From Saprospiraceae bacterium (GTDB taxonomy: Bacteria > Bacteroidota > Bacteroidia > Chitinophagales > Saprospiraceae), in the NCBI GenBank assembly GCA_019187225.1, contig JABAQQ010000036.1:1-64000 (forward strand): 64,000 nucleotides of DNA, given 5' to 3'. This document shows positions 13,666-41,487 of the stretch, in pieces. A model generated the notes under the pieces. That model was not told the origin of the DNA, ran no database searches, and saw only the letters and a list, made by a program, of their open reading frames with translations. The first letter of the stretch is position 1. Every line of letters begins with the position of its first letter. Both the position numbers and the translations under genes were made by a program.

Positions 13666-13686
13666 TTAAGACAAAAGACTCTTTAA
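13666..13686. promoter_or_regulatory. Rrf2-type operator copy upstream of the first oxidase operon
   Basis: TTAAGACAAAAGACTCTTTAA matches the shared motif TTAAGACAAAATACTCTTAA with one substitution and one inserted T. It lies 11 bases upstream of the small subunit ATG, where a repressor would block transcription. Confidence 0.6.
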
Positions 13687-18359: not shown

Positions 18360-18766
18360 TTTCGCTGAATCATTCCGGTTGGCAGGGCAACGAAATCTTT
18401 CGGGTCGGCACGGCCGCTCGCGTCGGTTGCTTTCAAAAATGCCAGCAAGGCCGCAATTTCCTCTTCCGGCATTGTAAAAGACGGCATGGGCGCGCTACCA
18501 ACCTTCAACATTGCCCGAATCCACGTCTCGCCCTTGCCAGGCGCCGAATAAATGTTCGTCAAATCGGGGCCCAAATAGCCTCCCAACCCATATAATTGAT
18601 GACAGCTCTGGCAGTTATACCGCTGCCATACCAACCTGCCTTCCGACGCCATTTGCTTTTCCGGATTTGTAGAAGGTGCGGCATCGAGAGCCGGTTCCAG
18701 GTAAATACTGAAAGAAAAAGCGAGAAAAGCCAGGCTTAAAACGGTGAATGTATGTGCCGGTTTCAT
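18356..18766 (-). CDS. NorC-like membrane-anchored monoheme cytochrome c
   Basis: 136 residues from the ATG at 18766; starts further upstream would overlap the preceding gene. One N-terminal helix (TFTVLSLAFLAFSFSIYL) anchors a cytochrome c domain with CQSCH and a distal Met in APMPSFTMPEEE. GRLVWQRYNCQSCHQLYGLGGYLGPDLTNIY follows the NorC pattern. It overlaps the oxidase-like gene by 4 bases and begins 14 bases after the stop of the 600-residue unknown gene. It presumably feeds electrons to the protein at 16974-18359. Confidence 0.88.
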   Translation of the reverse strand: MKPAHTFTVLSLAFLAFSFSIYLEPALDAAPSTNPEKQMASEGRLVWQRYNCQSCHQLYGLGGYLGPDLTNIYSAPGKGETWIRAMLKVGSAPMPSFTMPEEEIAALLAFLKATDASGRADPKDFVALPTGMIQRK

Positions 18767-18779
18767 TGTCCTGGATAAA

Positions 18780-20582
18780 TCAGTCGAGTGAATATTCAAG
18801 TTTTAAGGCCGCCAGCTCTTCTTCTGCGTTCTGTAATGCTTGCCCGAAATCGGCCTGATCGGCAAAGAATAATTGCTGAAGGTTTTTATAATACTGGATC
18901 GAATCGGATAAATTCCGGTGAAACATCCGGTAATGGGCTGTTTTTTTCACGTCTTTCATGATACCATCCTCGTTCATCAGCTGTTCTTTCAAATATTTGA
19001 CATAAAGTTTCATTTCGGCAATGAACATGTGGGGGCGCTGCGCATTGGTGACGAGGTTGGTTCTTCCGTAAATGTGGTCGGTCATTGTTTGCAGAGAGAC
19101 CACTTTTGAATAGTTCACAATATTAGGGCCGGGACAAACGGTTACGGCCTTAAGGTTTTTTAAAAAAGGTTCCTCATAACACAACGACGCGGCATTGCTC
19201 AATCCTATGCACAAACACTCTTTCGCCAAAACCTCCGCCTTTTGTTTTTCATACTCCTTTTCTGGCAATTGAAGGGTTTTTAAGTGCTCCAATTTTAATT
19301 TTTGATATTGGCGCGACGCAGTGCATATCGGCTCTTCCGTAAATTCCGTGTTCAAGGCCAAATGTTTTTCGGTGCACGGGCTGCCGGGTTTGCCAGTTTT
19401 AATGCGCCGATGCTTTTCTACATCTGCGGTGGTGCCGTTCAAGTGATAAAAGCGCACTCCAAGCGGGGAATAGCCGCTCAGCACAACATTGTCTTCATTT
19501 GCCGCGCAAAGTTGGGATAATGTATGCGCATCCACCGTAGTTGCTTCCGGAACCAATAAAAATGGAGTCCCCCACCCTGTGCTTGAAACCTGATAATGCC
19601 GGCGCAGGAAACAGTCTTCCTTATAAGTCCCTATTCCGCCCTGCACGGAAATATTAATTGCAGGATAGCGGGTGAAGTTGAAACCAAGTTTGCTGCGGAT
19701 CACTGTATTATATATCTCAAAAATAGTTTCGCTTAACTCCTGTCGTTTGTGGTTGAATTCTTCAAGAATTGGTCCGAGTAAATGACCGTCGGTGGCAAAA
19801 GCATGGCCGCCGCAATTCAATCCCGATTCAATTCTAAACTCGCTTACCCAAATTCCTTTTTTGGCCAGATACTTACCCTGAATAAATGCCGACCTGAAGT
19901 CGCTCACTTTTACAATCACCCTTTTGTCAAATTTGAAATTCCCGTCCGGATCAAACACATTGGAGTTTTCAAGATAATTGAATAATCTTGGATTCATTCC
20001 GGCTGAAAAAACGACAGAAGAATTGGAAAGGTCGCTTTTCATATAGCCGCGCAAGGCAGCCACCGCTTCTGACCCATCCTGAATGATGTTCCGGTTTTCA
20101 TCACGGTTGTCCCGGTCAACCTTGGTCATAATATTTACATCAATACTTCCGGCAACAAGTTGTGTTCTCAGGTAGGTCTGCCTTTTTATCCTTTCTCCTG
20201 TATCCGTGCAATGCAACATTTCATGGTACAATTTTTTTAACCGGCTTTCTTTTGGCAACATCTCGAAATATTTCACAATTTCAGCCCCCTTTTCAAATGC
20301 TTCCGATTTTAGTTTTTGCATTTGTTGCTGAACAATAGCGTTCACGAGGTTCAGATAATCAGTTATTCTTTTTGCCCGGTAGTCTGGCTCACGGCTTGTG
20401 ATGGGTTCATAAGGCTTGTTAATACTTGGATAATAGTGTCTTCGCATCATTTCAATCAACCGGTCCTCTATGATTGAAATGACAGACGATATCCCGAATC
20501 GGGCCACTTTAATCGGTGAATCAATGGTAAAAGCGGTACCCATCACAGGAATGTGAAAGGTGTGTTCAGATTTATAATCCAT
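18780..20582 (-). CDS. 600-residue conserved protein of unknown function in the nitrogen-oxide island
   Basis: A soluble protein with no signal peptide or membrane helix. It opens MDYKSEHTFHIPVMGTAFTIDSPIKVARFGISSV. In the middle are SEFRIESGLNCGGHAFATDGHLLGPI and INISVQGGIGTYKED...SSTGWGTPFLLVPEATTVD, whose glycine-rich runs recall FMN-binding TIM barrels of the glutamate-synthase or nitronate-monooxygenase kind. Cysteines cluster near ECLCIGLSNAASLC and TVCPGPNIVN. I do not recognise a characterised family; an FMN or Fe-S enzyme is a guess. It directly precedes the NorC-like gene, and an Rrf2-type operator lies in its leader, which implies a role in NO or denitrification metabolism. Confidence 0.8.
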   Translation of the reverse strand: MDYKSEHTFHIPVMGTAFTIDSPIKVARFGISSVISIIEDRLIEMMRRHYYPSINKPYEPITSREPDYRAKRITDYLNLVNAIVQQQMQKLKSEAFEKGAEIVKYFEMLPKESRLKKLYHEMLHCTDTGERIKRQTYLRTQLVAGSIDVNIMTKVDRDNRDENRNIIQDGSEAVAALRGYMKSDLSNSSVVFSAGMNPRLFNYLENSNVFDPDGNFKFDKRVIVKVSDFRSAFIQGKYLAKKGIWVSEFRIESGLNCGGHAFATDGHLLGPILEEFNHKRQELSETIFEIYNTVIRSKLGFNFTRYPAINISVQGGIGTYKEDCFLRRHYQVSSTGWGTPFLLVPEATTVDAHTLSQLCAANEDNVVLSGYSPLGVRFYHLNGTTADVEKHRRIKTGKPGSPCTEKHLALNTEFTEEPICTASRQYQKLKLEHLKTLQLPEKEYEKQKAEVLAKECLCIGLSNAASLCYEEPFLKNLKAVTVCPGPNIVNYSKVVSLQTMTDHIYGRTNLVTNAQRPHMFIAEMKLYVKYLKEQLMNEDGIMKDVKKTAHYRMFHRNLSDSIQYYKNLQQLFFADQADFGQALQNAEEELAALKLEYSLD

Positions 20583-20860: not shown

Positions 20861-20880
20861 TTAAGAGTATTTTATCTTAA
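20861..20880. promoter_or_regulatory. Rrf2-type operator copy, best palindrome
   Basis: TTAAGAGTATTTTATCTTAA; on the minus strand it matches the motif TTAAGACAAAATACTCTTAA at 19 of 20 positions. The palindromic arms extend to 9 bases (20858-20866 with 20875-20883). It lies between the Rrf2 gene and the 600-residue gene, on the leader side of the latter. Confidence 0.7.
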
Positions 20881-20904: not shown

Positions 20905-21345
20905 CTAAGGCATCAGCCGGAGCCTGCTGTCCAAAGTGATTTGTCCCATTTGAGCCAACGTAGTGGTTTCAAATTCGTGCTTGAGTGCAGCCTTTATCTC
21001 CTTCCAAAACTGGTGCATCGGACAGGGCTTCTTTTCTCCACATCCCGGCAAGCCGAGCAGGCAGGTGTCAAAAAAATCTTCCCCTTCCAGCACCCGCACC
21101 ACGTCGCTGAGCATAATTTTTTCGGGAGGGATATTGAAAGCGACGCCGCCACTCGGGCCCCTGTAAGAGGCCAGTATGTTGGATTGGGTCAGACTCTGCA
21201 GGATTTTAGTCAAAAAATGAAACGAAATATCGAGTTGTTCCGACATCTCGCGGATACTGACGTATTCCTGTTCCCCTCCCCTTTTACCGACCATATACAA
21301 CAGCGCCCTTAAGCCGTATTCGCTGGATTTAGAAAGTACTTTCAA
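20905..21345 (-). CDS. Rrf2-family transcription regulator with three cysteines (NsrR/IscR-like)
   Basis: 146 residues if started at the TTG at 21345, giving an N-terminus (M)KVLSKSSEYGLRALLYM as in other Rrf2 proteins; the longer ATG-started frame crosses the operator and promoter and is unlikely. A winged helix (about 10-70) with YRGPSGGVAF wing is followed by Cys95, Cys102 and Cys108, close to the cluster-binding triad of NsrR and IscR. It probably binds an Fe-S cluster sensing NO or redox state. An operator copy (21360-21379) and a TACATTTG -7 element (21378-21385) lie just upstream, so autoregulation is likely. It sits amid the genes it seems to control. Confidence 0.9.
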   Translation of the reverse strand: MKVLSKSSEYGLRALLYMVGKRGGEQEYVSIREMSEQLDISFHFLTKILQSLTQSNILASYRGPSGGVAFNIPPEKIMLSDVVRVLEGEDFFDTCLLGLPGCGEKKPCPMHQFWKEIKAALKHEFETTTLAQMGQITLDSRLRLMP

Positions 21346-21359
21346 AATCAATAAGTGGT

Positions 21360-21379
21360 TTAAGAGTATTTTGTCGGCA
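21360..21379. promoter_or_regulatory. Rrf2-type operator copy upstream of the regulator gene
   Basis: On the minus strand TGCCGACAAAATACTCTTAA matches 17 of 20 positions of the shared motif. It begins 15 bases before the TTG start and touches the -7 element, a classic autorepression position. Confidence 0.65.
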
Positions 21380-21385
21380 AATGTA
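21378..21385 (-). promoter_or_regulatory. -7 promoter element of the Rrf2 gene
   Basis: TACATTTG on the minus strand fits TAnnTTTG and overlaps the end of the operator copy by two bases. No clear TTTG is seen at -33. Confidence 0.5.
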
Positions 21386-21478
21386 AGGCCAATTTTTTTG
21401 CAGGCAACACTCCGGGGCAAAATATTTGTGGATGCACCGTTCTGCGCGGTCCGGCTGGGGGAGCGTTCAATGAGGAAT

Positions 21479-22228
21479 TCAAAACCGGGGTTTTCGGTCG
21501 TGGCGTCTGCTCAGGACAAAAACGACAACAAGGGACAATAAAGCAGGCAACAATAGCAGGAGCAGGCCGGTTCCGGGTTGGTTCTTGCCTGTTTCGGGGT
21601 TATAAGAGAAACAGGAAAAGACCATGTTCTCGTTCGGCAAGGGATATGAAAGAATGAACTCATTGCGAATACTCCTGAGCAGGGATGTGAAGGCGTTAAA
21701 GTCTCTCAACCCTGTCAGTTTCCTGGTGATAAATCCTTCGTCGTTGATCCCAACCAGCAGCGCTTCGTGGTCGAATTGCGCCCTTACGCTGTCCCACACC
21801 GGGTTGAACCCGACAGAATTAATCAGTTCGCTGATTTGCGGCGTGGTAGCGAAAATCCATCCGCCGTCGTTATCCAACCCATACCGAATAGCCAGTCGCC
21901 TCATCTCCCCGGATCCGTCGCGCGGATCAAAGCTCACAACGAGCACTCTGGAGCGTTCGTCCGAATCCGCAACCAGCATATTTTCCTTAACCTGTAGCAA
22001 AAAAGGATTGCAGACACCTGAGCACCGGGTATAAATCAACGCAATGACGACCGGCCCCTGGCTATATAGCCCGGAAAGGCTGCGAACTTCCCCATCATAA
22101 GCAATATTTACGTCGGCTACTTTCTGATATATCTTGTCTTCCTCCGAAAACACGTATCCCGGTCCCTGCGCGCGCGCAACGGCACCGAGACAAAAAATAC
22201 TCAGGCCGCAGAAAATACTTTTAAACAT
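21479..22228 (-). CDS. SCO1/SenC-family copper chaperone, second copy
   Basis: 249 residues with a cleavable signal peptide (ends ARAQG), an SCO domain with copper ligands Cys69 and Cys73 (YTRCSGVCNPF) and His154 (QFDHEAL), and a C-terminal transmembrane helix followed by a basic tail. It starts 28 bases inside the end of the preceding subunit I gene, so it is translationally coupled. It presumably metallates the CuA site of the subunit II at 23648-24208. Like the other SCO gene (9916-10698) it has a C-terminal anchor, but the sequences are clearly different. Confidence 0.87.
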   Translation of the reverse strand: MFKSIFCGLSIFCLGAVARAQGPGYVFSEEDKIYQKVADVNIAYDGEVRSLSGLYSQGPVVIALIYTRCSGVCNPFLLQVKENMLVADSDERSRVLVVSFDPRDGSGEMRRLAIRYGLDNDGGWIFATTPQISELINSVGFNPVWDSVRAQFDHEALLVGINDEGFITRKLTGLRDFNAFTSLLRSIRNEFILSYPLPNENMVFSCFSYNPETGKNQPGTGLLLLLLPALLSLVVVFVLSRRHDRKPRF

Positions 22229-23640
22229 TTATTGACTGTATTGACCAAAAACCACACTATGACCGCCAGATAAAGACAGGCAAACAAAGCCCCTGCGGAC
22301 GCCAATATACTTAGCGATGAAAATTCCTGTGGGTAAACATTGAATCTTCTCGGCACGGAGTAAGCGCCGCCGATGTAGAACATTATTACAAATCCGGACC
22401 CGCCAATGATCAACAGGGTCATTTTCAGCCGGGTAAACTTGTCTGTATGTCCCTTGCCTCCAAATTCATTGGCTGCCCAGTTGAAAAAAGCCAGACTGAA
22501 AAGGACGTTGCCAATGGCGTTGTAGGTATGAAAATGCGCCGGAACCCATAGCGTATTGTGCAAAACAAAGTTGTTGCTGATCGTGGCATCAATTACTGCG
22601 CCGACCCCTCCGATCAGCCAGCCTGTTACCCCAACAAAGAACAAGGTGTTGGTCAGCGACCAGCGAATGGGATTCTTGATGACCACAGCCAATACGCTGA
22701 AAGCGGTAACGGCAGCCGCCGGCACACTGGCAAAATAAGACGCCATCTGCCCGATCACCTGAAAAGCGAATGGCTGAACGAAGTCCATGTACATGTGGTG
22801 GAAAAATGCAGTGAGGATAAAAACCATGGTGCAGTTCCACGCCAGCGCCACATACCAGGTCATCTTGAATTTAGGACGCCCGCTTACTTCCGGGAACAAT
22901 TCATACAAACTTGCCAGCCCCAGGTAAAGCATCTCATTTGCCAACGTATGCCCGAAAAAGAACGTCAGGTTCTTCATTAAAAGCGCGTCGTTTACGAAAG
23001 ACCCTGATGAAAAATATTCGGCAAAATAGAGGACAAGCAACAGTACAGCCGCCACTAAGCAGGTTATGATACCTATCAGCGTAACAGTAGAGATCAAAAT
23101 GAACGGCGGCGTTTCAATCTCTGGACTTCCCTTCCGCAGGTGCTGCCATGCGAATGCCTGCGCTGGCCTGTATTTCCTGAATATTTGAAACAACATACCC
23201 GCCGACCACACAAACCAACCAATGCCTAATACGCCCAAAGCGAGCAGAAATAAGGGCGTCGCCCATTCCTTCCACGCACCCCGGAACGGCAGGGGGTATA
23301 AAAACGTCCAGCCAGTGTGAAATTCGCCGACAAAAGTGACAAGCCACAACATCACCACTCCGATAACAGTCAGCACCAATGCGAAGACATTAATGCCTGC
23401 TGAAACCTTGATGTATCGCTGCAACAGGAAGTTGACGGCAGCCATGCCTGCCACAAACCAAATTCCTATCATTGTCAACCCATGGATCGTCATCATGGAA
23501 TAAAACCCCACGGGCGAAAGATGAATGGCGTTGCCCTGGTTGAAACGCATCAGGATACCGAATACGATTGCAAGGACAAACAACACCAAAATCGTTATTA
23601 TCCAAACGGACGTGAGCTTTTTCAATTGTAATGTTGCCAT
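22201..23640 (-). CDS. B-type heme-copper subunit I with Asn in place of the active-site Tyr, probable NO reductase
   Basis: 479 residues, about 12 helices. The metal ligands are complete: His53, His369 and His371 for the hemes, and His231, His281 and His282 for CuB. Four residues after the helix VI histidine, where oxygen reductases of the B type have Tyr (HPIVY), this protein has Asn235 (HTLANE), followed by Glu236. The missing crosslinked Tyr argues for NO reduction, as in the sNOR/bNOR-type families described in the literature; the exact family needs a tree. It follows subunit II by 7 bases and overlaps the SCO gene. Confidence 0.85.
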   Translation of the reverse strand: MATLQLKKLTSVWIITILVLFVLAIVFGILMRFNQGNAIHLSPVGFYSMMTIHGLTMIGIWFVAGMAAVNFLLQRYIKVSAGINVFALVLTVIGVVMLWLVTFVGEFHTGWTFLYPLPFRGAWKEWATPLFLLALGVLGIGWFVWSAGMLFQIFRKYRPAQAFAWQHLRKGSPEIETPPFILISTVTLIGIITCLVAAVLLLVLYFAEYFSSGSFVNDALLMKNLTFFFGHTLANEMLYLGLASLYELFPEVSGRPKFKMTWYVALAWNCTMVFILTAFFHHMYMDFVQPFAFQVIGQMASYFASVPAAAVTAFSVLAVVIKNPIRWSLTNTLFFVGVTGWLIGGVGAVIDATISNNFVLHNTLWVPAHFHTYNAIGNVLFSLAFFNWAANEFGGKGHTDKFTRLKMTLLIIGGSGFVIMFYIGGAYSVPRRFNVYPQEFSSLSILASAGALFACLYLAVIVWFLVNTVNKCLKVFSAA

Positions 23641-23647
23641 GACCGTC

Positions 23648-24208
23648 TTATTTTACGTTGAATGATGTCCGCATAAAGGCATGAGCCATGCCGCAATATT
23701 CGAGACAGAGGATATTGTATTCGCCGGGGGAATCGAAAACCCATCGCAGGCGGTTAATATAACCCGGCATCGCCTGTGTCTGAGCGATCAAATTTCCCGA
23801 CATATCATAAATAGCGAATCCATGGTTCACATCAAAACTGGTGACCCGAAACTCCACCGGTTTGCCCCGCGGCAATTCGATCGCCTTAGCCGGCGCCTGA
23901 GTGTCGGGGGCTATCGTCTGGTACGACATCGCAAAACTGAATTGTCGCGCAGCAACAAACACAACTTTGGACGGAGTCGAATTGGCGAAAAAAAAGTACG
24001 GTGAGCGCGGGAGGGTTAACGTGAACAAGATGATCACTGCCTCCATCAGGATGAAGAATAACAAAAACCGCTTCTTCTTCGGATTTGTCAGGCCACCTTT
24101 CGCAGATGAAGATGGGAGGGAAGACAAGTAGGCATACAAAAATACTGCTACGATGCCGACTGTCAACAGAAAGAACAGGACAAGGGTAAAGGTGTGTTTG
24201 TCGTCCAT
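23648..24208 (-). CDS. Heme-copper subunit II with intact CuA site
   Basis: 186 residues. Two hydrophobic helices (about 8-28 and 48-66) precede a periplasmic cupredoxin. The CuA ligands are His129 (VNHGFAI), Cys168, Glu170, Cys172, His176 and Met179 (CLEYCGMAHAFM). Unlike the first operon's subunit II there is no fused cytochrome c and the N-terminus carries an extra helix. First gene of the operon subunit II - subunit I - SCO. CuA implies a cytochrome c or cupredoxin electron donor. Confidence 0.9.
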   Translation of the reverse strand: MDDKHTFTLVLFFLLTVGIVAVFLYAYLSSLPSSSAKGGLTNPKKKRFLLFFILMEAVIILFTLTLPRSPYFFFANSTPSKVVFVAARQFSFAMSYQTIAPDTQAPAKAIELPRGKPVEFRVTSFDVNHGFAIYDMSGNLIAQTQAMPGYINRLRWVFDSPGEYNILCLEYCGMAHAFMRTSFNVK

Positions 24209-24574: not shown

Positions 24575-27055
24575 TTAGTTCATAGTGTCCGAAGTGTTAA
24601 CCCACGAATTTTCTTTTAAGGCAGGCTTGGCCTCTGGCTTTTTTTCCTCTTGATCTTCGGCGTCTTCATCGAGTTCGTCTACTCGCTTTCCGCTGCGGGC
24701 TTTTTTAAGCGAACGCAAACGGGTGACCATGAACCACGCCAGTGGAATCACCCCGCCAAAGAAAAATATGGTGGCGCCTATACCCCGCAACCAGGTAAGC
24801 GTCTCGAAAGTGCCGCCGTGGATAAATTCGGCGGAACGCCCGTACCACAGACCTTTGTCAACCACTGCCCTGAACTGGATCGCGCCTGCCGGAAACAGGT
24901 CCAGAATGACCATCAGCATCAGACCGGCGTTGATCGCCCAAAAAACTGTCCGTATCATTTTAGTATCCCAACGCTCGGTGCGCAATACCATTTTGGAGGC
25001 GAACAACATAGCCGCCAGGGAAATATTGCCATATACACCCATCAATGCTGCGTGCGCATGGTTGATGGTCAGGTAAGTTCCGTGTTCGAAGTAGTTCATG
25101 ATCGGCAGGTTGACGATGATGCCCATTACACCTGCGCCGAAAAAGTTCCAGAAGTTGACCGCTACTAAAAACAGAAATACTTCCGGAAAAGCGAAATTGC
25201 TCCCCAGATCCTTTTGCTCCACATCGCCGACCGCAATCTTCGGCATGTTTTTAAAACGCCAGGCCTCGACAGTGAGCAGGATCAGGGGGATAAACTGGAG
25301 GGTGGAAAACACGCTGCCCAATGCCATGGTGGCTACTGGTTTGGCATTCCAGTAGAAATTATGGGAAATACCCAACAAACCGGTGCCGAGGAACAACAAG
25401 GTGGCGAAATACACCACCCGGATAGCGGCTTGCCGGCTCACCAAACCCATCAATACCAACAGGTAGCTGACGATCACCGTAATAAATACCTCGAAGAACG
25501 CTTCCACCCACATGTGGATAACCATCCAGCGCCAGAAATCGGCAATGACGAAGTTCGTTTCCGGCGTTGCCACAAAACCGCTGATGAAGAGCAGGGGAAT
25601 GCCTATTACCGAATACATGATCCATTTGGGCAGGCTCCAGGTTTCTTTTTTTACGAAGGCGGGACGCAACCCGCGGTACACCGTTATGCCCCAGAGTACA
25701 AATACCACCATGAGCAAAACCTGGTAAATCCGGCCAAAATCCACGTATTCCCAGCCCTGATGCCCCAACATGTACCACCAATCGCCCAAAAGACCGAGCG
25801 GGCCCAGAACCATGCCCGTCAGAGAGCCTGCCACCAGGACGACCAACAGGATAAATAATGTATTGACCAGAGTCAACTGACCCGGTACTTCCTGCTTAGA
25901 CAAAATGGGCAATATAAAAATGGACGACGCCACCCAACACGTTGAAATCCAGTACAAACTCAACATGATATGCCAGCTTCTCGCCAGCGTCACAGGCACA
26001 TCTTCGGTAATATGTATGCCAACGACCCCGAGAAAATTGATAAAATCGTTGATGGTAATGATGCCGCTTAATACCTGCACAAAAAACAACAGCGCTGCAA
26101 CCGCAAAGAATTTGTAGGTAGCACGTTGGGTCGGAGTCGGTTTAAACGACCGCACTTTATCAATCGTAAGCAGGTCTTTTTTTGGTGGGGTGAAAAACTT
26201 GTTCGGCAATTGGTTGTATTGACCTATAAAGTAAAGCACAATACCGCAACCCAGCACAAACCCCAGCATCCCCAACACACTCCACAAGATGACGGGAGTG
26301 GTGGGCGTATTGCCCGCCTGCGGATCGTAAGGCCAGTTGTGGGTATAACTGAAATCGGATCCGGGGCGCTCCACAGCGCATACCCAGGCGCCCCAAAAAA
26401 AGAAACCCGCCAGATCTTCCACTTCCTGCCGGCTGGTGATATAGTTGGGCGGCGGAAAAGATTTGTCCGTATTGTGATCAATAAACAGACCAGCGTAATA
26501 TTTTTTCACATTTTCCAGTGCATACACCTGTCCTTCCGTCAGGTATATCTTTTGATCCTCTTTATTAAACCGGTTGATTTTCAGGTCTTTTTTCACACCT
26601 TCCTCGATGACGCTAACTTCATCCGGCAAAGGTTCCCTCCCATTTTTCAACCCAAAAGCCCGGATGGAGTATTCGGTCATGTAACGCGCTGTGAGGTTGA
26701 GCGCTTCGGCAGTGAAGTCCGGCCCGCGCTGTGCGCCGTCGCCAAAATAACTCCCGTACTCCATCAGGGCATACTTGTGAAAAACCTCCTGGCCCCGCGT
26801 GATAACCGCCTTTTCCATGACTACCTCCCCGGAAGGAGCCGCAAACGCCGCTTCCGGCGGCGCATCGAAGTAGGTTTGATAGCCTATCATACCCACGCCA
26901 ACCAGGCTGATGACGAGGATAAAGGTCAATGGGCCCCACCAATTGCGGGTGTTCATGAAATAGTCAATACCCTTTTTGGTTTGGCCATTTCCATTGCCAT
27001 TTCCCGGGGTGTTGTCAGACTGTTGCATTGCAAAAAATGGTTTAAATGCTTTCAA
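24575..27055 (-). CDS. nod: Putative nitric oxide dismutase (qNOR-like, catalytic-site variant)
   Basis: 826 residues: an N-terminal helix and periplasmic cytochrome-like domain without heme motif (as in qNOR), then 12-13 helices. Retained: His362, His514, Glu518 (HMWVE), His565, His666, His668. Changed: the third FeB ligand is Asn566 (SHNFYW, qNOR GHHxxW) and the conserved Glu 21 residues later is Gln587 (STLQFIP, qNOR SALEPLP). The quinol-site His and Glu of qNOR align with Asn336 and Asn340. This combination is the one reported for NO dismutases (2 NO to N2 + O2), with a constant +6 offset from the qNOR numbering I remember for the catalytic residues. An Rrf2-type operator lies at its promoter. 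Function is inferred from the substitutions. Confidence 0.85.
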   Translation of the reverse strand: MKAFKPFFAMQQSDNTPGNGNGNGQTKKGIDYFMNTRNWWGPLTFILVISLVGVGMIGYQTYFDAPPEAAFAAPSGEVVMEKAVITRGQEVFHKYALMEYGSYFGDGAQRGPDFTAEALNLTARYMTEYSIRAFGLKNGREPLPDEVSVIEEGVKKDLKINRFNKEDQKIYLTEGQVYALENVKKYYAGLFIDHNTDKSFPPPNYITSRQEVEDLAGFFFWGAWVCAVERPGSDFSYTHNWPYDPQAGNTPTTPVILWSVLGMLGFVLGCGIVLYFIGQYNQLPNKFFTPPKKDLLTIDKVRSFKPTPTQRATYKFFAVAALLFFVQVLSGIITINDFINFLGVVGIHITEDVPVTLARSWHIMLSLYWISTCWVASSIFILPILSKQEVPGQLTLVNTLFILLVVLVAGSLTGMVLGPLGLLGDWWYMLGHQGWEYVDFGRIYQVLLMVVFVLWGITVYRGLRPAFVKKETWSLPKWIMYSVIGIPLLFISGFVATPETNFVIADFWRWMVIHMWVEAFFEVFITVIVSYLLVLMGLVSRQAAIRVVYFATLLFLGTGLLGISHNFYWNAKPVATMALGSVFSTLQFIPLILLTVEAWRFKNMPKIAVGDVEQKDLGSNFAFPEVFLFLVAVNFWNFFGAGVMGIIVNLPIMNYFEHGTYLTINHAHAALMGVYGNISLAAMLFASKMVLRTERWDTKMIRTVFWAINAGLMLMVILDLFPAGAIQFRAVVDKGLWYGRSAEFIHGGTFETLTWLRGIGATIFFFGGVIPLAWFMVTRLRSLKKARSGKRVDELDEDAEDQEEKKPEAKPALKENSWVNTSDTMN

Positions 27056-27075
27056 TTAAGATAAAATACTCTTAT
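27056..27075. promoter_or_regulatory. Rrf2-type operator copy at the dismutase promoter
   Basis: TTAAGATAAAATACTCTTAT matches 18 of 20 positions of the shared motif. It begins one base upstream of the nod ATG and lies downstream of the minus-strand -7 element TATCTTTG (27084-27091), so a bound regulator would block initiation. Confidence 0.65.
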
Positions 27076-27230: not shown

Positions 27231-27250
27231 TTAAGACAGTTTTGTCCTAA
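27231..27250. promoter_or_regulatory. Rrf2-type operator variant upstream of the bcr operon
   Basis: TTAAGACAGTTTTGTCCTAA is itself nearly palindromic (TTAAGACA/TGTCcTAA) and its reverse complement matches the shared motif at 16 of 20 positions. It covers the -33 TTTG (27241-27244) of the plus-strand promoter. Confidence 0.55.
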
Positions 27251-27272
27251 TTAAGGATTTTTCCTACATTTG
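27241..27272 (+). promoter_or_regulatory. Promoter of the benzoyl-CoA reductase operon
   Basis: TTTG (27241-27244), 20 bases, then TACATTTG (27265-27272): a close match to TTTG-N19-21-TAnnTTTG. It lies 61 bases before the bcrC-like ATG (27333) and its -33 box is inside an operator copy. Confidence 0.6.
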
Positions 27273-27332
27273 TCCCGCAGTCACCCCTTAAAACCAGCCT
27301 TAGAGGCAACACAATCAAAAAGATGTGTAAAG

Positions 27333-28523
27333 ATGGAGGTATTAAAAGCAATCATCCAGCGGTGCAAACATTTGGCTTTCGATCTAAACTTTTCCCGCGC
27401 CAAAGACTGGAAAGCCGAAGCAAAAGGACGCGTGGTGGTGGGTTACATGCCCATTTATTTCCCCCGCGAGATCGTTCATGCCGCGGGAGGTATGGCGGTT
27501 GGCATTTTTGGCGGCGGCGACCGCAAGCAGGTAGTCAAAGGCGACGCTTACTACCAGTCTTATATCTGCCATATTCCGAGAAGTATTCTGGAGTTAGCAC
27601 TCGACAAGCAGATGGATCATTTCGACGGATTCGTCTTCCCTTCCATCTGCGATGTCATTCGCAACTTGTCGGGTATTTTCAAGCAGAAAAAAATCGGAAA
27701 ATTTGTCAAGTACATGGACTTTCCGCAGAACTTCCTGCCTGAGATCGGCGGCGCCTTTTACCAGGAGGAGATGCGGCACGTCCTGCATTTGATACGAGAA
27801 ATAAACGGCAGGGAAGCCACCGCAGCCAGCCTGAACCACGCCATCCGGCTTTACAACCACAACCGCCGCCTCATCGAGACCATCTACGACATCCGGCAGG
27901 AATACCCCTGGCGTCTGAGTATGGAGGAGTTCTATTACATCCTCCGGGCAGGTACGGTCATTCCCGTAGAGGAACACAACGCCATTCTCGAACAAGTTTG
28001 CGAGCGCATCCGGAAAGACATCGGCACACCCCAGGATAAAGTGAAAGTAGTAGTGTCGGGCGCCTTTTGCGAGCAACCCGCCATCGGGCTTATTCGCGCC
28101 ATCGAGGAGGCCGGATGTTATGTGGTGGACGACGATTACATGCTCGGTTCCCGCATGATAACCGGCGACATTGCCGACGATACCGACAAGCCCCTCGAAG
28201 CCATCGCCCATGCCTATCTGACTCAAAGCCGGTATTCCTCGTCCATTTACGACGTGAACGACCCCAAAGAATACCGGCTGGCTAAAATCGTACGGGACCG
28301 CGGCGCTGATGGGGTCATTTTCGCTTCAGCCAGCTTTTGCGATCCCAGTCTGCTCGACGCGCCGATCTTCCAAAACGCCTTTAACAGGATGGGTATCCGC
28401 TATATAGCCTTTCAATACAGCGAAAATATCAATCAGTTCAAAGTCATCAAAGAGCAAGTCGGCGCTTTTTCCGATTCCATCAAACTCTGGGAAGACGAAC
28501 CAGCGGAAGCCATCTATGCCTGA
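27333..28523 (+). CDS. bcrC: Class I benzoyl-CoA reductase subunit C (HgdA/B fold)
   Basis: 396 residues from the ATG at 27333; the frame is open upstream but the extension has no family similarity. It belongs to the 2-hydroxyglutaryl-CoA dehydratase D-component/BcrB-BcrC family, which carries Fe-S clusters and binds the substrate. Cysteines that probably ligate clusters lie in YICHIPRS, FPSICDVIRN and SGAFCEQPA. First gene of bcrC-B-A-D, the same order as in Thauera. The complex reduces benzoyl-CoA to cyclohexa-1,5-diene-1-carbonyl-CoA with two ATP-driven electrons from ferredoxin. It is cytoplasmic and extremely oxygen-sensitive in known cases. The C/B labels follow gene order and length. 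Confidence 0.85.
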   Translation: MEVLKAIIQRCKHLAFDLNFSRAKDWKAEAKGRVVVGYMPIYFPREIVHAAGGMAVGIFGGGDRKQVVKGDAYYQSYICHIPRSILELALDKQMDHFDGFVFPSICDVIRNLSGIFKQKKIGKFVKYMDFPQNFLPEIGGAFYQEEMRHVLHLIREINGREATAASLNHAIRLYNHNRRLIETIYDIRQEYPWRLSMEEFYYILRAGTVIPVEEHNAILEQVCERIRKDIGTPQDKVKVVVSGAFCEQPAIGLIRAIEEAGCYVVDDDYMLGSRMITGDIADDTDKPLEAIAHAYLTQSRYSSSIYDVNDPKEYRLAKIVRDRGADGVIFASASFCDPSLLDAPIFQNAFNRMGIRYIAFQYSENINQFKVIKEQVGAFSDSIKLWEDEPAEAIYA

Positions 28524-28548
28524 TTGTCAAATTTTTATCTAAAAAATT

Positions 28549-29838
28549 ATGTCGAAAGAAGCGCAAAAAGAACAAAGCATGATCCTCCAGAAGGAGATGG
28601 TCGAAGGGTTGTTTAATGAACTGGCCGCTGCCAGGGAGACGGGCAAAAAAGTGTGTTACACCTTCGTGCCCGGCAACCTCTCCGAACTCATCCGCACATT
28701 CGACATGCTTCCTGTGTATCCCGAAATCAATGCCCTGCAAAACGCCATGCGGAAAAAGTCGGCCGCCTATATCAAAGAAGCCGAGCGGAACGCCCACAGC
28801 GAAGACGTATGCACTTATGTTAAATGCGATGTCGGCATGATGCTCAAAGGCAACATCGGCCCCACTGGCCAGCCGCTGCCGCCGCCCGACATCCTGTTGC
28901 TGAGTTATACCGGCTGTTTCACCTTTATGAAATGGTTCGAGACCCTTAAGCGGGAATACCCTAATGCCAGGGTCGTCATGATCCACACGCCCTACCAGGA
29001 AAACGGCGAAATAACCCCTGCCATGGTCGAATACATGGTCAGGCAATTAAAAACGGAGGTCATCCCTCAGATGGAAGCGGTCAGCGGGATTCGGTACGAC
29101 GAGGAAAAACTTAAGGGCATCCTTTCCCTTTCCAAAGAGGCCGAAGACTGGATCACCCGGATCTTCAACACCACCAAACACCGGCCCTCGCCCATAGACG
29201 CCTATTTCGCCGGCGTGTATTACATCGGCCCCATCAACATTGGCTTTCGCGGCACACGGGAAGCGGTAGACTACTATAAGGCCCTCTACGGGGAAATCCA
29301 GGAGCGCATTCGGCTCGGCCTCGGCCCCATTACCCCCGAAGGCGAAATGCAGGAAGAAAAATTCCGCCTCGTGGTCGAAGGTCCGCCCAATTGGACCAAT
29401 TTCCGCGAATTTTGGAAAATCTTCTACGACATGGGCGCCGTTATCGTCGCTTCCTCCTACACCAAAGTTGGCGGCGTGTACGACCTCGGTTGGCGCCACG
29501 ACCCCTCGCGCCCGCTCGAATCCCTGGCAGAATACTGCATGAATTGCTACACCAACCTCAATATCCCCCAACGCATAGACCTGCTGTCCAAGTTCATCCG
29601 CGACTACGAAGCCGACGGTTATATCACCAATTCCATCAAGAGCTGTAACTCTTTTTCCGCAGGCCAACTGAGTATGATGCGAGAGATCGAAGACCGCCTC
29701 GAAGTGCCGGTCGGTTTTATCGAATCCGACCTCGTGGACCCGCGCTATTTTTCTTATTCCAACATTAAAAACCGCCTGGAATCCTATTTCCAAATGCTGG
29801 CTCAGCGAAAAATCATTCACGCCACCGCAACTGTATAG
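28549..29838 (+). CDS. bcrB: Class I benzoyl-CoA reductase subunit B
   Basis: 429 residues of the same HgdA/B fold, with cysteines in KKVCYTFVPGN, DVCTYVKCDVG, YTGCFTFMKW, YCMNCYTNL and KSCNSFSAGQ. The order and length (about 49 kDa) match BcrB of the Thauera/Azoarcus enzyme. With subunit C it forms the reductase module. It starts 26 bases after bcrC and ends 3 bases before bcrA, a tight operon. I cannot exclude that the whole four-gene enzyme acts on a substituted benzoyl-CoA (for example 3-methyl or 3-hydroxy), since class I reductases differ in range. Confidence 0.87.
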   Translation: MSKEAQKEQSMILQKEMVEGLFNELAAARETGKKVCYTFVPGNLSELIRTFDMLPVYPEINALQNAMRKKSAAYIKEAERNAHSEDVCTYVKCDVGMMLKGNIGPTGQPLPPPDILLLSYTGCFTFMKWFETLKREYPNARVVMIHTPYQENGEITPAMVEYMVRQLKTEVIPQMEAVSGIRYDEEKLKGILSLSKEAEDWITRIFNTTKHRPSPIDAYFAGVYYIGPINIGFRGTREAVDYYKALYGEIQERIRLGLGPITPEGEMQEEKFRLVVEGPPNWTNFREFWKIFYDMGAVIVASSYTKVGGVYDLGWRHDPSRPLESLAEYCMNCYTNLNIPQRIDLLSKFIRDYEADGYITNSIKSCNSFSAGQLSMMREIEDRLEVPVGFIESDLVDPRYFSYSNIKNRLESYFQMLAQRKIIHATATV

Positions 29839-29841
29839 GCC

Positions 29842-31272
29842 ATGAATAAATACTATTTAGGTATAGACCTCGGCTCCACCACATCTAAAGCCGTCATCAT
29901 CAACGAAAAGGACGAAATCATCGGCCGCGGCATCACCAATACCCGCGCCAATTACAAAGTGGCAGCCGACATCGCCCGCGAAGAGGCCATTTACGACGCA
30001 CGTTTCAACCTGCTGGCCAACCGCATCCGGGAGGAGATGGAGTTGAAGCCCGAATTCAAAAAGTACATGGCCGACATACGCGCCGTCTTCCAGTACCGGC
30101 AGTTCAAACGCCGCATGGACCGCCTCGAAGTTTTGTTGCGCAAAACAGTGTCCGAGTTTACCAGTAAAAACAAATCCGACATCGCTGAAAAACTCGACGA
30201 GATACTCGAAACCATCCGCCCCCGCATCCGCCATGGATTCATCAACGAAGACCTCGGCGCTAAAAATCAGTTTTTCCGCGATATCGTCAGCGAACAGTAC
30301 AACGCGGAAGTGGCGAAAAAAGGCGCCGGATTTTACGAGCCGCTTATGCTCGCTTTCGATAAAAGCATTACCCCCGTCGAAAATGAGATGGTGCAGTACA
30401 ATTTCCGCGAACTGGTGTTCGAATCCATGGACGTGCTCGATGAAAAATACCGCGGACTGGCCGACCAACCGCAGGATGACAACCGGGAAGATTGGTATTA
30501 CGCGGAGCTGAACGCCGTCAAAAACAACTATAAAAGCGTGGAGCATTCGCTGCGCGAGCACATCGAGGACATCGTCAACGAAGACATTCACATTGCCAAA
30601 ATGGTTGGAACAGGCTACGGCAGGGCATTGCTGCCCTTCCCGGAAGACTGTATCAAATCGGAAATCCTCTGCCACGCTTTCGGCGCCCACGCCGTATTCC
30701 CCAACACCCGCACTGTGCTCGATATCGGCGGGCAGGATACCAAAGCCATCCAGGTAGACAGTCATGGCCTGGTCACCAGTTTCCACATGAATGACCGTTG
30801 CGCCGCCGGCTGCGGCCGCTACCTCGGTTATATCGCTGACGAGTTCGGCTTGTCGCTCAACGAGTTAGGCCCTGAAGCCATGAACGCCACCAAAGAAACG
30901 ACTATTTGTTCCACCTGCACCGTATTCGCAGGAGCCGAAGTGAAAGAATTGCTGCACAATGGCGAAGAACGTCCCAACATCCTCGCCGGGCTGCACAAGG
31001 CCATCGTGCAGCGCGCTATGTCGCTCATCGCCCGCTCCGGCGGCGTAAAAAACGAATTCACTTTCACCGGCGGCGTTGCCCGCAATCAAGCGGTACTGCG
31101 GTACGTGAAGCAGATGGTCACCGACGCCTACGGCGAAGTGACCATGAACATCCACCCTGACTCCATTTTCATGGGAGCTCTCGGCGGCGCCATGTTCGCC
31201 CGCCGCAACATCAGCGCCGACCTGCCCAAAACTGCTAAAATGACTGAAAACGAAGAACCTGCAACCGTTTAA
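29842..31272 (+). CDS. bcrA: Class I benzoyl-CoA reductase subunit A (ASKHA ATPase/electron activator)
   Basis: 476 residues. The ASKHA ATP-binding fold is visible in LGIDLGSTTSKAVII, VLDIGGQDTKAIQ and FTFTGGVARNQAV. The [4Fe-4S] bridging cysteines are in NDRCAAGCGRYLGYIADEF and 39 residues later in CSTCTVFAG, the same 39-residue spacing as in HgdC. A helical insertion (about 50-230) separates the first ATPase motif from the rest, as in BcrA. With BcrD it forms the ATP-hydrolysing activator, which accepts electrons from ferredoxin and passes them at low potential to BcrBC. Confidence 0.93.
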   Translation: MNKYYLGIDLGSTTSKAVIINEKDEIIGRGITNTRANYKVAADIAREEAIYDARFNLLANRIREEMELKPEFKKYMADIRAVFQYRQFKRRMDRLEVLLRKTVSEFTSKNKSDIAEKLDEILETIRPRIRHGFINEDLGAKNQFFRDIVSEQYNAEVAKKGAGFYEPLMLAFDKSITPVENEMVQYNFRELVFESMDVLDEKYRGLADQPQDDNREDWYYAELNAVKNNYKSVEHSLREHIEDIVNEDIHIAKMVGTGYGRALLPFPEDCIKSEILCHAFGAHAVFPNTRTVLDIGGQDTKAIQVDSHGLVTSFHMNDRCAAGCGRYLGYIADEFGLSLNELGPEAMNATKETTICSTCTVFAGAEVKELLHNGEERPNILAGLHKAIVQRAMSLIARSGGVKNEFTFTGGVARNQAVLRYVKQMVTDAYGEVTMNIHPDSIFMGALGGAMFARRNISADLPKTAKMTENEEPATV

Positions 31273-31283
31273 AAAATACCGCT

Positions 31284-32150
31284 ATGCAAGAGAATATTTA
31301 CACAATGGGAGTGGATGTTGGCGGCAGTTATGTCAAAGCCGTCCTGATGGCCTACGACTATGAGGGCGACAACCACCGCCTGTTGGACAAACAAACCGAA
31401 AAGATCCGCAAACGAAACCCCAGAGAGGTGGTGGACGAAACTGTGGAGATGGTTTTGAACCGCAACCACCTGAATTACGAGCGCGACATTTCCTATCTGG
31501 CTTCCACCGGTGAAGGCGAAATGGTCGTACGCAAAACCGGCCACTTTTACAGCATGACCTCCCACGCACGCGGCGGCATTTTTTTTGCCACGGAGGCCAA
31601 AACAGTGGTGGATATGGGCGGCCTCTACGTGCGCGCCATTAAGGTGGACCCGCGCGGCAAAGTGCTGGACTACAAAATGACCGGCCAATGCGCTTCCGGT
31701 TCCGGTCAGTTCATCGAAAACATTTCCCGCTATCTCGGCCTCGCTGTCGAGGAAGTGGGCGAAATTTCCCTGAAGGCCGACAACCCCGAAGTACCTTCCG
31801 GCATCTGCGCCGTATTGGCGGAAACCGATGTTATCAACCTGGTTTCCAAAGGCTTGTCCACGCCCAACATCGTCAAAGGCATCAACATCTCCATCGCACA
31901 GCGGGTCATCAAATTGCTTGGTTCGCTGCGGGCCGAGCCGCCCGTCGTATTGGTGGGTGGCATGGGCATGAACGTGGGCATGATTCAGGCTATACGCGAG
32001 CTGGCCGCCGAAAACAAAAAAAACAACCTGGAATTCGCCACACACCCCGACGCCATTTATTCCGGCGCCATCGGAGCGGCGCTGTGGGGAGGGTTTCGCT
32101 ATTTTAAATTAAAAGAAAAAAACGCTGCCGCAGTGCTGCAACCAGCATAG
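31284..32150 (+). CDS. bcrD: Class I benzoyl-CoA reductase subunit D (ASKHA ATPase)
   Basis: 288 residues, the compact partner of BcrA. ATP-binding motifs MGVDVGGSYVKAVLM, VVDMGGLYVRAI and VLVGGMGMNVGM are present. The cluster cysteines occur in TGQCASGSGQF and, 39 residues later, GICAVLAETDV. With BcrA it coordinates one [4Fe-4S] cluster at the heterodimer interface. It starts 11 bases after bcrA and is followed 26 bases later by the acyl-CoA ligase gene, so all are likely co-transcribed. Confidence 0.93.
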   Translation: MQENIYTMGVDVGGSYVKAVLMAYDYEGDNHRLLDKQTEKIRKRNPREVVDETVEMVLNRNHLNYERDISYLASTGEGEMVVRKTGHFYSMTSHARGGIFFATEAKTVVDMGGLYVRAIKVDPRGKVLDYKMTGQCASGSGQFIENISRYLGLAVEEVGEISLKADNPEVPSGICAVLAETDVINLVSKGLSTPNIVKGINISIAQRVIKLLGSLRAEPPVVLVGGMGMNVGMIQAIRELAAENKKNNLEFATHPDAIYSGAIGAALWGGFRYFKLKEKNAAAVLQPA

Positions 32151-32176: not shown

Positions 32177-33925
32177 ATGAACGTCTTACATTCCGAAATC
32201 CCGTTGGGCGAAGTCCTGCCGAATATAGCCGTATTGCTCAATCGAAATGCCGGCCGTTTCGCTGATAATACCGTATTCCGGCAAAAAAACGCCCAGGGTC
32301 AATACGAAAGCATCTGCTGGCAGGATTTTGCAGAAAACATCCGCCGCATTGTCCGTAACCTCCGGCAGCAAGGTTTTACCCACGGCGATAAAATGGTGAT
32401 TTTTTCCCGCAACTGCCTTCCGATGCTGGAATTGGAACTTGCTGTAATGGCTTCCGGCGGCATCGCAGTGCCCATTTTTGCCCATTTCAAAAAACAAACT
32501 GCCGAACTGCTCATCAACCACTCGGATGCCGCCTGGCTGGCAGTGGAGGGCATCAACCAGTTGTCCAACGCCGGCGAAACACCCAAAATCCGGCATATTT
32601 TTGTGCTCGACGACAGCCCACTCCACCACCCTGAAGCGGGCATCGAGCCCTTCCGCCATTTGCTGGAAAAAACGAACGATGGCGATACCGCTCTGGACGA
32701 AAACATCCATCCCGATACTATTTGCCTGAATATGTATACGTCGGGAACTATGGGGACGCCCAAATGCGTGCAACTGACCCACAGAAATATCCTTTCCCAA
32801 CAGGCTGCTATCGAACCCGTACTGCGTATATCAGAACACGATCGTTTCCTCTCTTACCTGCCCTGGCATCACAGTTTCGGCGGCATCTTCGAACTTTTTT
32901 CCGCCTTATACAACGGCGCCTCCTATTCGCTCGAAAGCAGTTACGGCAAAGACCCGCGCAGTATTTTCGACAACTGGCGGCAGGTCCGGCCCACCGTTTT
33001 TTTCAGCGTGCCGAAAGTCTACCAGGCGCTCTTCGACCTGACCCGTGAGAGCCGGGAGGCGGAGGATGTTTTTTTTAATTCCGGCCTGAAATTCATCTTC
33101 ACCGCTGCTGCGGCCTTGCCCGAACGCTTGTCGAAAGAGTTTGAAAAACGCGGTATTCCTGTTGTAGAAGGCTGGGGACTTACGGAAACCTCCCCTTGCT
33201 GTACGCTTACCGATCCCGCCGTGAAACGCACGCCCGGCGTCGTTGGCAAACCGATTCCCGGAGTCAGCCTGCGCATCGCTCCCGACGGCGAAATTCTGGT
33301 GAAAGGCCCCAACGTCATGGCGGGGTATTTTCGCAACGACGAGGCCAATGAAAGCGCATTCACCGCCGATGGATGGTACCGCACCGGCGATGTGGGTCAA
33401 TTTACCGAACACGGCCTGCAACTCATCGCCCGCAAAGACCGGATTTTCAAACTGTCGAACGGCGAAAAGGTCATTCCCACCGACCTGGAGCGCGCCATCG
33501 AACTCAAGTGTCATTACGTGCAGTACGCCATAGTGGCCGGCAATGGCGAAGAACACCCCGTCGCACTCATATTCCCCAACAAAAAACTGCTCGAACAACC
33601 CGACTACGAACTCAGCCCGGATGAAGGCTGCTTCTGCCCCAGAACCCTCAACGAACTTGGCCGGTGCCTCACCGGCTGCCTCGAGATGGCCAACAACAGC
33701 ATCGGCCAGAAATTCGCCAACGTCAAGTCCGCCGCCGTTATCCTCGACGAACTCTCTTTAGACCACAACACCCTGACGCCTTCGATGAAAATGGCGCCCA
33801 AAAACGTACTTGAAAAATATCGCTCTCACTTGCTGAACCTCTACGGCGAATCGGTGCCGGTGGAGGAAGAGGTGTACGTCATCGAACTGGAAAAAAACAA
33901 ACCGACCGCGACATGTACAAAATAA
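32177..33925 (+). CDS. AMP-forming acyl-CoA ligase, aromatic or alicyclic substrate likely
   Basis: 582 residues of the ANL superfamily. The phosphate loop YTSGTMGTPK (187-196), YLPWHHSFGG, the adenine motif EGWGLTETSP, the hinge YRTGDVG and a C-terminal lysine in LTPSMKMAPKN are present. The general architecture is of the long-chain FadD15 type rather than short benzoate-CoA ligase (about 520 residues). The place inside the bcr operon argues for activation of benzoate, 4-hydroxybenzoate, cyclohexane carboxylate or an aromatic side-chain acid, but the sequence alone does not decide. Its 3' end overlaps the next gene by 13 bases. Confidence 0.85.
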   Translation: MNVLHSEIPLGEVLPNIAVLLNRNAGRFADNTVFRQKNAQGQYESICWQDFAENIRRIVRNLRQQGFTHGDKMVIFSRNCLPMLELELAVMASGGIAVPIFAHFKKQTAELLINHSDAAWLAVEGINQLSNAGETPKIRHIFVLDDSPLHHPEAGIEPFRHLLEKTNDGDTALDENIHPDTICLNMYTSGTMGTPKCVQLTHRNILSQQAAIEPVLRISEHDRFLSYLPWHHSFGGIFELFSALYNGASYSLESSYGKDPRSIFDNWRQVRPTVFFSVPKVYQALFDLTRESREAEDVFFNSGLKFIFTAAAALPERLSKEFEKRGIPVVEGWGLTETSPCCTLTDPAVKRTPGVVGKPIPGVSLRIAPDGEILVKGPNVMAGYFRNDEANESAFTADGWYRTGDVGQFTEHGLQLIARKDRIFKLSNGEKVIPTDLERAIELKCHYVQYAIVAGNGEEHPVALIFPNKKLLEQPDYELSPDEGCFCPRTLNELGRCLTGCLEMANNSIGQKFANVKSAAVILDELSLDHNTLTPSMKMAPKNVLEKYRSHLLNLYGESVPVEEEVYVIELEKNKPTATCTK

Positions 33926-36989: not shown

Positions 36990-36999
36990 AAAATTTCGT

Positions 37000-41353: not shown

Positions 41354-41372
41354 CCGCTTTTTCAAAAAGATT

Positions 41373-41464: not shown

Positions 41465-41487
41465 CATAAAAAGAATATTGAAAAAAC

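Follow-up and report, generated by a model that had tools for sequence, protein, structure and literature searches.

We analysed the first 64,000 nucleotides (positions 1 to 64,000, forward strand) of contig JABAQQ010000036.1 from a Saprospiraceae bacterium (Bacteroidota; assembly GCA_019187225.1), a stretch referred to here as the window. On its minus strand lies nod (24575..27055), an open reading frame (ORF) of 826 amino acids (aa) encoding a putative nitric oxide (NO) dismutase of the qNOR family, as judged from its residues, Pfam domains and tree. Genes for other NO-related proteins lie downstream, and bcrCBAD, for a class I benzoyl-CoA reductase, is divergent from nod. The start of nod is ambiguous, TTG at 27055 or ATG at 27028; alignments of the three closest relatives begin at residue 10, and those of others at residues 2-5. 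The protein is a single qNOR-like chain matching the Pfam NorB cytochrome c-like and COX1 domains; CxxCH is absent from its sequence, and the cytochrome c-like domain has no heme c.

Residues 43-790 could be aligned with the G. stearothermophilus qNOR (3ayf); positions were counted by hand on this alignment and the letters re-read in the protein sequence. A sequence-only reading of the gene had proposed that it keeps His514, Glu518 and His565, carries Asn566 and Gln587 as substitutions, and is offset from qNOR by a constant six residues at the catalytic positions. The alignment agrees: these residues correspond to positions 508, 512, 559, 560 and 581 of 3ayf, so that the FeB ligand His560 is replaced by Asn566 and Glu581 by Gln587, with the remaining FeB histidines and Glu512 (here Glu518) retained. 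The same reading had placed Asn336 and Asn340 at the quinol-site His and Glu, and they do fall at His328 and Glu332 of 3ayf; Phe336 is Val344 and Asp746 is Ala761, the last a fourth change that the reading had not noted, so that all four quinol-site positions are altered. His362, His666 and His668, which we take to be the heme ligands that it had listed as retained, are invariant in 24 sequences. The protein therefore has neither the intact quinol site nor the three FeB histidines of a qNOR, and is probably unable to accept electrons from quinol.

By sequence, the window protein belongs among the Bacteroidota representatives of the putative Nod family. Changes at these FeB, Glu and quinol positions are described as the marks dividing putative Nod from qNOR (PMC3413370, PMC10286720). 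The putative Nods of Muricauda ruestringensis, Methylomirabilis oxyfera (DAMO_2434/2437) and HdN1 are like the window protein in the FeB His-to-Asn and Glu-to-Gln changes, the lost quinol site and the lack of heme c (PMC3413370), a comparison made by published description. Nod in Bacteroidota is not new: besides M. ruestringensis (PMC3413370), it has been reported in Sediminibacterium and Algoriphagus (PMC10264387) and in lake metagenome-assembled genomes (MAGs) that include a Bacteroidota clade, divided into two by an earlier tree (PMC13386854), and the Nod residues are common to all of these and the window protein. The gene context, nod with NOR-like genes and divergent from bcr, was not found in print, and we found no account of nod adjoining or co-regulated with benzoyl-CoA reductase genes in literature from which most subscription papers were outside coverage. 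Two papers describe Nod together with anaerobic degradation of benzoyl-CoA within one benzene culture. The first reports nod alongside a Bacteroidota MAG in which enzymes of anaerobic benzoyl-CoA degradation were expressed, but the sole good-quality nod MAG is gammaproteobacterial (PMC8099898); in the second, Nod transcripts went undetected (PMC5852087).

Relatives of the Nod protein

A scan of genome contigs confirmed 234 relatives, the best 80 of which were used as nod loci. Residues were counted in an alignment of 100 rows, comprising 52 of clade A (window included), 30 of group B, a second gene from locus L047, and 17 canonical qNORs (11 from Bacteroidota and 6 from plasmids). Asn566 and Gln587 occur together in 82 of the 82 Nod-type rows and in none of the 17 canonical rows, a count biased by the peptide patterns of the scan, which included HNFYWNAK; ten rows left out as short or duplicate (L043, L052, L054, L055, L087-L091, L094) are all Asn/Gln. 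Within clade A, Asn566, Gln587, His514, Glu518 and His565 are each present in 52/52 rows, Asn336 in 51/52 and Asp761 in 0/52, and 33 rows have Asn at position 340 where the other 19 have Asp, a residue seen there in some qNORs too. Group B has Asn566 and Gln587 in 30/30 rows, His336 in 29/30, Gly340 in 28/30 and Asp761 in 0/30. All 17 canonical qNORs retain His336, Glu or Asp340, Asp761, the His-His pair and Glu587.

Two less biased samples were also examined. All eight qNOR-family matches in same-genus relatives (seven full length, one partial) are Asn/Gln; nod is patchy within the genus, with the A type in 5 and the B type in 3 of 36 relatives. Because of the HNFYWNAK pattern, the fairer test is a set of 296 genomes, each 90% complete or better, drawn evenly from Bacteroidota. 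Of these, 28 had a qNOR-family match: the four at 54-100% identity (the window and L121-L123) are Nod-type, and the 11 examined of the 24 at 29-37% are canonical. The window Nod shares 69-70% identity with proteins from three Muricauda sp. loci (L042, L044, L045), 53-56% with group B proteins and, over most of its length, 27-37% with the 17 qNORs. With 3ayf and the six plasmid matches examined (L083-L086, L126, L127), all canonical qNORs, it shares domains, length and heme ligand positions, but it differs in the third FeB His, the catalytic Glu and all four quinol-site residues.

The tree was a quick maximum-likelihood one (LG+G4, 100 rows, short search, Shimodaira-Hasegawa-like approximate likelihood ratio test [SH-aLRT] without bootstrap, rooting assumed, with a long-branch warning). 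Nod-type rows split from the 17 canonical qNORs with an SH-aLRT of 100, and the window protein thus falls outside the quinol-oxidising NORs. Clade A, which includes Saprospirales, Muricauda, Robiginitalea and others, is monophyletic (SH-aLRT 100), and the group B rows are not resolved into a single clade. The window protein is placed among Saprospirales rows, inside a wider 50-row set (SH-aLRT 99) that holds the three Muricauda rows, whereas Algoriphagus rows belong to group B, on the Asn/Gln side of the tree.

Several observations on individual loci may be recorded here. The closest relative among the best 80 of 234 (L003, 86%) comes from a contig of 7.7 kb that was binned as Thermoanaerobaculia (Acidobacteriota), which could reflect transfer or a binning error, and a clade A Nod of 62% identity (L053) is in a Bacteriovoracaceae (Bdellovibrionota) assembly. 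Locus L047 (9941-14948) has two tandem Nod-type genes, 68% and 40% identical to the window Nod, and the second carries Asn/Gln with Met at 336. A lipoprotein of about 464 aa, resembling by eye vanadium haloperoxidase/PAP2, lies close to nod in 16 loci of clade A and one of group B (for example L041 8533-9924). Neither a phage nor a plasmid origin of nod was borne out. There was no phage match, and none of five pattern matches in viral contigs encodes a relative; 318 plasmid records match, all below 60% identity, the best of 30 listed reaching 36.5%.

The gene island around nod

The earlier reading had concerned nod by itself, and the surrounding island of NO-related and aromatic-degradation genes extends it. 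Downstream of nod on the minus strand the order is norS-like, norY-like and senC-like, followed by an Rrf2-family regulator gene, a gene for a 600-aa protein, a cytochrome c gene and a NorB-like gene. The first gene (23648..24208; family scan and the motif CLEYCGMAHAFM) encodes a NorS-like CuA subunit II, and the second (22201..23640; family scan and motif) a NorY-like heme-copper subunit I with Asn at the oxidase Tyr position (GHTLAN). The SCO1/SenC-like protein (21479..22228) scores 16.5 bits against PF02630, under the cut-off of 22.8, and is named also from its position after norY. Asn at the oxidase Tyr position is listed for sNOR and CuANOR (PMC8756737), and the window pair (22201-24208) has both this Asn and the CuA subunit of an sNOR; as in the sNOR NorSY-SenC of Nitrosomonas (PMC6967387), the S, Y and SenC genes lie together. 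A second enzyme farther along the minus strand consists of a CuA and cytochrome c subunit II (12515..13462; family scan and motif) and a subunit I (10844..12511; family scan) with Gln at the Tyr position (GHSSQQ), whose best PDB matches are ba3 oxidases. Gln is listed there for eNOR (PMC8756737), and these genes (10844-13462) have it together with a cupredoxin subunit II; we call them eNOR-like, and the sNOR and eNOR labels follow from one residue, subunit make-up and gene order. Family scans also identified an SCO1/SenC protein (9916..10698, minus strand), a cytochrome b/4Fe-4S protein (7985..9919, minus strand) and a ScdA/RIC-type protein (62593..63354, plus strand); a hemerythrin gene is nearby in the window. 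The order nod-norS-norY-senC is repeated in group B locus L066, and an eNOR-like operon adjoins nod in L075.

The 600-aa protein (18780..20582, minus strand) had no Pfam or NCBIfam match at E 0.001, and a PDB profile search gave nothing useful, as PHROGs returned nothing for four proteins searched; its model, with a predicted local distance difference test (pLDDT) score of 87, resembles the flavoproteins FabX, FabK and PfaD. It is followed on the same strand by a monoheme cytochrome c (18356..18799; CQSCH; family scan and motif), by position a NorC-like partner, and by a divergent NorB-like protein (16974..18359; alignment with cNOR NorB) whose predicted structure, with a mean pLDDT of 62, was set aside. 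If ligand roles are taken, as we assume, to be those of cNOR structures, the nine aligned members have the first FeB His replaced by Asn (window, L018, L082) or Tyr (six others), the catalytic Glu by Val or Ser, and one heme b His by Met, with the His-His pair retained. The protein thus departs from cNOR NorB, with its three FeB histidines, catalytic Glu and bis-His heme b. Of 50 nod genomes, 13 contain its gene, whereas among the 296 drawn genomes 5 do, including that of the window (some matches partial), an enrichment with a Fisher p of 4e-9 when the window genome is excluded, in sets not matched for ancestry or assembly. The 50 genomes, from the best 80 loci, represent 24 A loci, picked chiefly because their contigs are long, and all but one of the 27 B loci; that one, L076, also carries the gene. 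To call it a Nod-specific partner would be too strong, as the four other drawn genomes with the NorB-like gene had no Nod match. Across the flanks of the 80 nod loci, which are often so short that all counts are lower bounds, we found an Rrf2-type gene at least 54 times, the 600-aa protein gene at least 17, a NorB-like gene at least 9, and NorSY-SenC and an eNOR-like operon at least once each. The window also has a tyrosine phenol-lyase gene (14626..16005, minus strand; TIGR02618, above cut-off), and a homologue of at least 75% identity is near nod in at least 10 of the 80 loci (L010, L018, L019, L026, L038, L041, L050, L056, L075, L082). Beside it, some nod loci have a second, tryptophanase-like gene.

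The aromatic-degradation genes are on the plus strand. They begin with bcrC, bcrB, bcrA and bcrD (27270..32150; NCBIfam), of which C and B score above their cut-offs, D at 312.7 of 312.85 and A at 419 of 578. A family scan then identified an acyl-CoA ligase, a second HgdB-type pair, beta-oxidation genes, Had, Oah and a Dch-like gene (32177..43370), Had and Oah being above cut-offs and the Dch-like gene at 232 of 292.5. Next are a 4-hydroxybenzoyl-CoA reductase (Hcr)-like alpha/gamma fusion and FAD subunit (44272..47981; alpha 832.5 of 994.55) and, by family scan, a KorAB-like 2-oxoacid:ferredoxin oxidoreductase (59448..62364). The NO part and the aromatic part of the island may have been joined separately. 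Per 4-kb block, G+C is 0.47-0.51 in the NO part (8001-28000) and 0.53-0.58 in the aromatic part (28001-60000).

A genome of the same genus (G025) keeps the gene set, though rearranged. The Rrf2, nod, 600-aa protein, cytochrome c, NorB-like, tyrosine phenol-lyase and hemerythrin genes are present there, and Kor, Hcr, Dch, Oah, Had and BcrDABC share the nod stretch; the whole set fits into about 40 kb, at identities of 56-89%, and 32 kb separate nod from the nearest bcr gene. ScdA was not found in the examined G025 stretch. BcrB was above cut-off in 4 of 60 genomes searched (the window's, G025, G029 and G046), and G029 and G046 had no Nod match. Linkage of bcr and nod is not a general feature, as none of the other 80 scanned loci has a bcr gene in the vicinity of nod; in L009 an Hcr-like gene (65%) is found there, and another genome (G354) has nod and a NorB-like gene on one contig, with no bcr gene in the stretches examined.

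Palindromic sites and an Rrf2-family regulator

The Rrf2-family regulator (20905..21420, minus strand; family scan and sequence) has three C-terminal Cys, a candidate Fe-S site, and we infer that it is NsrR-like. A pattern scan placed palindromic sites before nod (27056..27075; TTAAGATAAAATACTCTTAT) and 19 nt before the bcrC TTG (27231..27250; TTAAGACAGTTTTGTCCTAA), the latter being one that could also serve nod. A perfect site (20861..20880) lies 278 nt before the 600-aa, cytochrome c and NorB-like genes; another (13666..13685) is 203 nt before subunit II of the eNOR-like operon and 11 nt before a 59-aa ORF; a fifth (62484..62503) is 89 nt before the ScdA/RIC gene. The window thus holds five sites at no more than one mismatch, against 0.04 expected from dinucleotide shuffles, and a degenerate site with three mismatches to the full consensus (21360..21379) lies near the Rrf2 gene start. 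The 40 kb that follow the window yielded no palindrome, nor did the examined stretches around nosZ and the three remaining heme-copper genes of the genome.

The palindrome recurs before nod elsewhere. The dyad TTAAGA-N8-TCTTAA is present in 9 of 76 nod upstream regions, where no dyad exceeded 2 in 20 shuffles, and TTAAGR-N8-YCTTAA at no more than one mismatch is present in 24 of 76, against 0.56 expected from shuffles. Over 1.37 Mb of nod loci there are 38 sites at no more than one mismatch, where five shuffles gave 7-13; of the 38, 24 precede nod, as do 22 of the 31 sites nearest the full consensus. Having the palindrome goes together with having an Rrf2 gene close by: it is present at 20 of the 27 loci with such a gene and at 3 of the 48 without. 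In G025, which has nod at a distance, the matched bcrC start is preceded by a perfect palindrome ending 54 nt from it, a result equalled in 0 of 2000 shuffles; before bcrC in G029 and G046, which lack nod, the best sites have three and four mismatches, in what is a comparison of two genomes with two. The arrangement is like the NsrR regulon (PMC1274295) in its Rrf2 regulator, NO-related targets and palindromic sites, and differs in that the candidate targets in the window include benzoyl-CoA reductase. Four group B loci (L058, L070, L075, L076) have a variant dyad, TAAGGA-N8-TCCTTA, upstream of nod, which perhaps belongs to a different Rrf2 paralogue.

Source of NO and function of Nod

The host genome (7.18 Mb, rated 100% complete), on whose contig 9 the window lies, encodes NosZ, well above its cut-off. 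Family-model searches, which can miss divergent enzymes, found no Nar/Nap, NirS, NirK or NrfA in it. The single NirK match (61 bits, cut-off 296.3) is by eye a multicopper oxidase, cut by a contig end, and the sole PF00384 match in the nitrate-reductase search is by eye a formate dehydrogenase. Three partial PF02239 matches of 20-27 bits, flagged above the Pfam cut-off and covering at most 86 of 368 positions, were taken not as NirS but as other beta-propellers, because PF02239 also matches in two control genomes. The host thus probably lacks an NO-forming reductase of its own and, since no nitrate or nitrite reductase was found in the genome, its NO is probably supplied from outside the cell. 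Seven heme-copper subunit I genes are in the genome, four of them in the window within 16 kb, and no monooxygenase was found among 42 window ORFs scanned against family models. In these respects, no nitrate or nitrite reductase detected in the host, no monooxygenase found in the window and anaerobic aromatic genes in their place, the locus differs from the Muricauda, Methylomirabilis and HdN1 systems.

Most likely, the locus belongs to a regulon that responds to NO and serves to remove or respire it while aromatic compounds are degraded anaerobically. Within it, the work of Nod is most likely a conversion of NO without quinol, and probably a dismutation. On this view nod encodes a membrane protein derived from qNOR that carries hemes b and b3; at its FeB site Asn takes the place of one His, and a nearby Glu is Gln. 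The protein would bind two NO and, without electron input, yield N2 and O2 rather than N2O. NO would relieve an Rrf2-type repressor, switching on nod, the eNOR- and sNOR-like genes, the NorB-like gene, ScdA and the bcr operon. A cell living beside denitrifiers could take up their NO while degrading aromatics anaerobically, and any O2 made would be consumed by oxidases; in the lake MAGs, no clear O2-consuming system was found in the immediate surroundings of nod (PMC13386854). This explanation as a whole, a Nod dismutating NO within an NO-responsive regulon alongside anaerobic aromatic degradation, is the one we favour, and on balance we think it probably holds.

A number of observations weigh against it. 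Chief among them is that the cell would be expressing an enzyme that forms O2 at the same time as one that O2 harms: benzoyl-CoA reductase is sensitive to O2 (PMC5852087) and an odd partner for an O2-evolving enzyme. Either the O2 is drained at once or little or none is made. Of the sequence-only reading's proposal, the assignment to the NO dismutase family stands on residues and tree, but the step to O2 made from NO is so far a proposal: Nod has not been isolated or characterised, certain results contradict NO dismutation (PMC13386854), and the host has no nitrate or nitrite reductase that we could find. The genome's other NOR-like enzymes and NosZ make a route through N2O available. The tree includes neither the Methylomirabilis and HdN1 Nods nor M. 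ruestringensis' own sequence. As to the regulon, just one of the 80 other scanned loci has NorSY-SenC next to nod, and just one the eNOR-like operon; neither was found in the examined G025 stretch. Of the 27 loci that have an Rrf2 gene close by, 7 lack a good palindrome, and the link between regulator and palindrome is an association among related loci, for which p-values overstate. The NsrR site, gATGyAT-N5-ATrCATc (PMC1274295), is unlike TTAAGA-N8-TCTTAA. Finally, the examined part of the G354 contig, which has nod and no bcr, holds eight sites at no more than one mismatch, one before nod and others beside unassigned genes, not all of them adjoining NO genes, and for this reason the regulon may be wider, or the palindrome less specific, than proposed.

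The alternative that survives best is that Nod serves NO detoxification only, shielding Fe-S enzymes such as benzoyl-CoA reductase, with O2, if any, incidental and no role in energy conservation. It concerns the role of the enzyme and is compatible with dismutation chemistry, so that its chances overlap with those of the explanation we favour, and we consider it a serious possibility that nonetheless falls short of probable. The Rrf2 regulator, ScdA and hemerythrin nearby suit it, as does the fact that no NO source of the host's own was found, and NsrR adjoining nod has likewise been read as possible detoxification (PMC13386854); yet four heme-copper subunit I genes within 16 kb, together with NosZ, resemble respiration, and O2 itself would damage benzoyl-CoA reductase.

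Unlikely, in our estimation, is an NO reductase after all, in which the altered site makes N2O with electrons from a non-quinol partner and NosZ finishes the reduction to N2. The island's cytochrome c or its cytochrome b/Fe-S protein could be that partner, the heme ligand positions are kept, and group B retains the quinol His in 29 of 30 rows. Against such a reductase stand the Gln in place of the catalytic Glu in every one of the 82 Nod-type rows, the four altered quinol-site positions of the window protein and its lack of CxxCH; and the function would be redundant with its neighbours, the same three NOR-like enzymes and cytochrome c that, with NosZ, make an N2O pathway plausible. An ordinary quinol-dependent qNOR whose residue changes are neutral drift, for which the 27-37% identity to 17 qNORs could be cited, is very improbable and is rejected on the Asn/Gln pair in 82 of 82 rows and the separate clade.

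A more elaborate form of the favoured explanation would have an NO-sensing Rrf2 regulon unite Nod, two B-family-like NORs, a new NorB-like variant (Asn/Tyr FeB, His/Met heme b) and class I bcr, with NO from neighbouring denitrifiers respired during anaerobic breakdown of tyrosine-derived aromatics and the O2 from Nod drained at once by adjacent heme-copper enzymes, which would spare the O2-sensitive reductase; taken in all its parts, we hold this to be quite doubtful. Published work leaves open both whether O2 is in fact a product of Nod and what purpose it would serve (PMC13386854), and the locus offers a concrete and testable setting for these questions: the Nod host is apparently without its own NO source, and nod shares its location, and apparently its regulation, with other NO enzymes and an aromatic pathway that is sensitive to O2. 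The common palindrome may serve as a marker for targets of the regulator in other nod-bearing Bacteroidota and, if the NorB-like variant is an enzyme, it provides a further altered FeB site for comparison with Nod.

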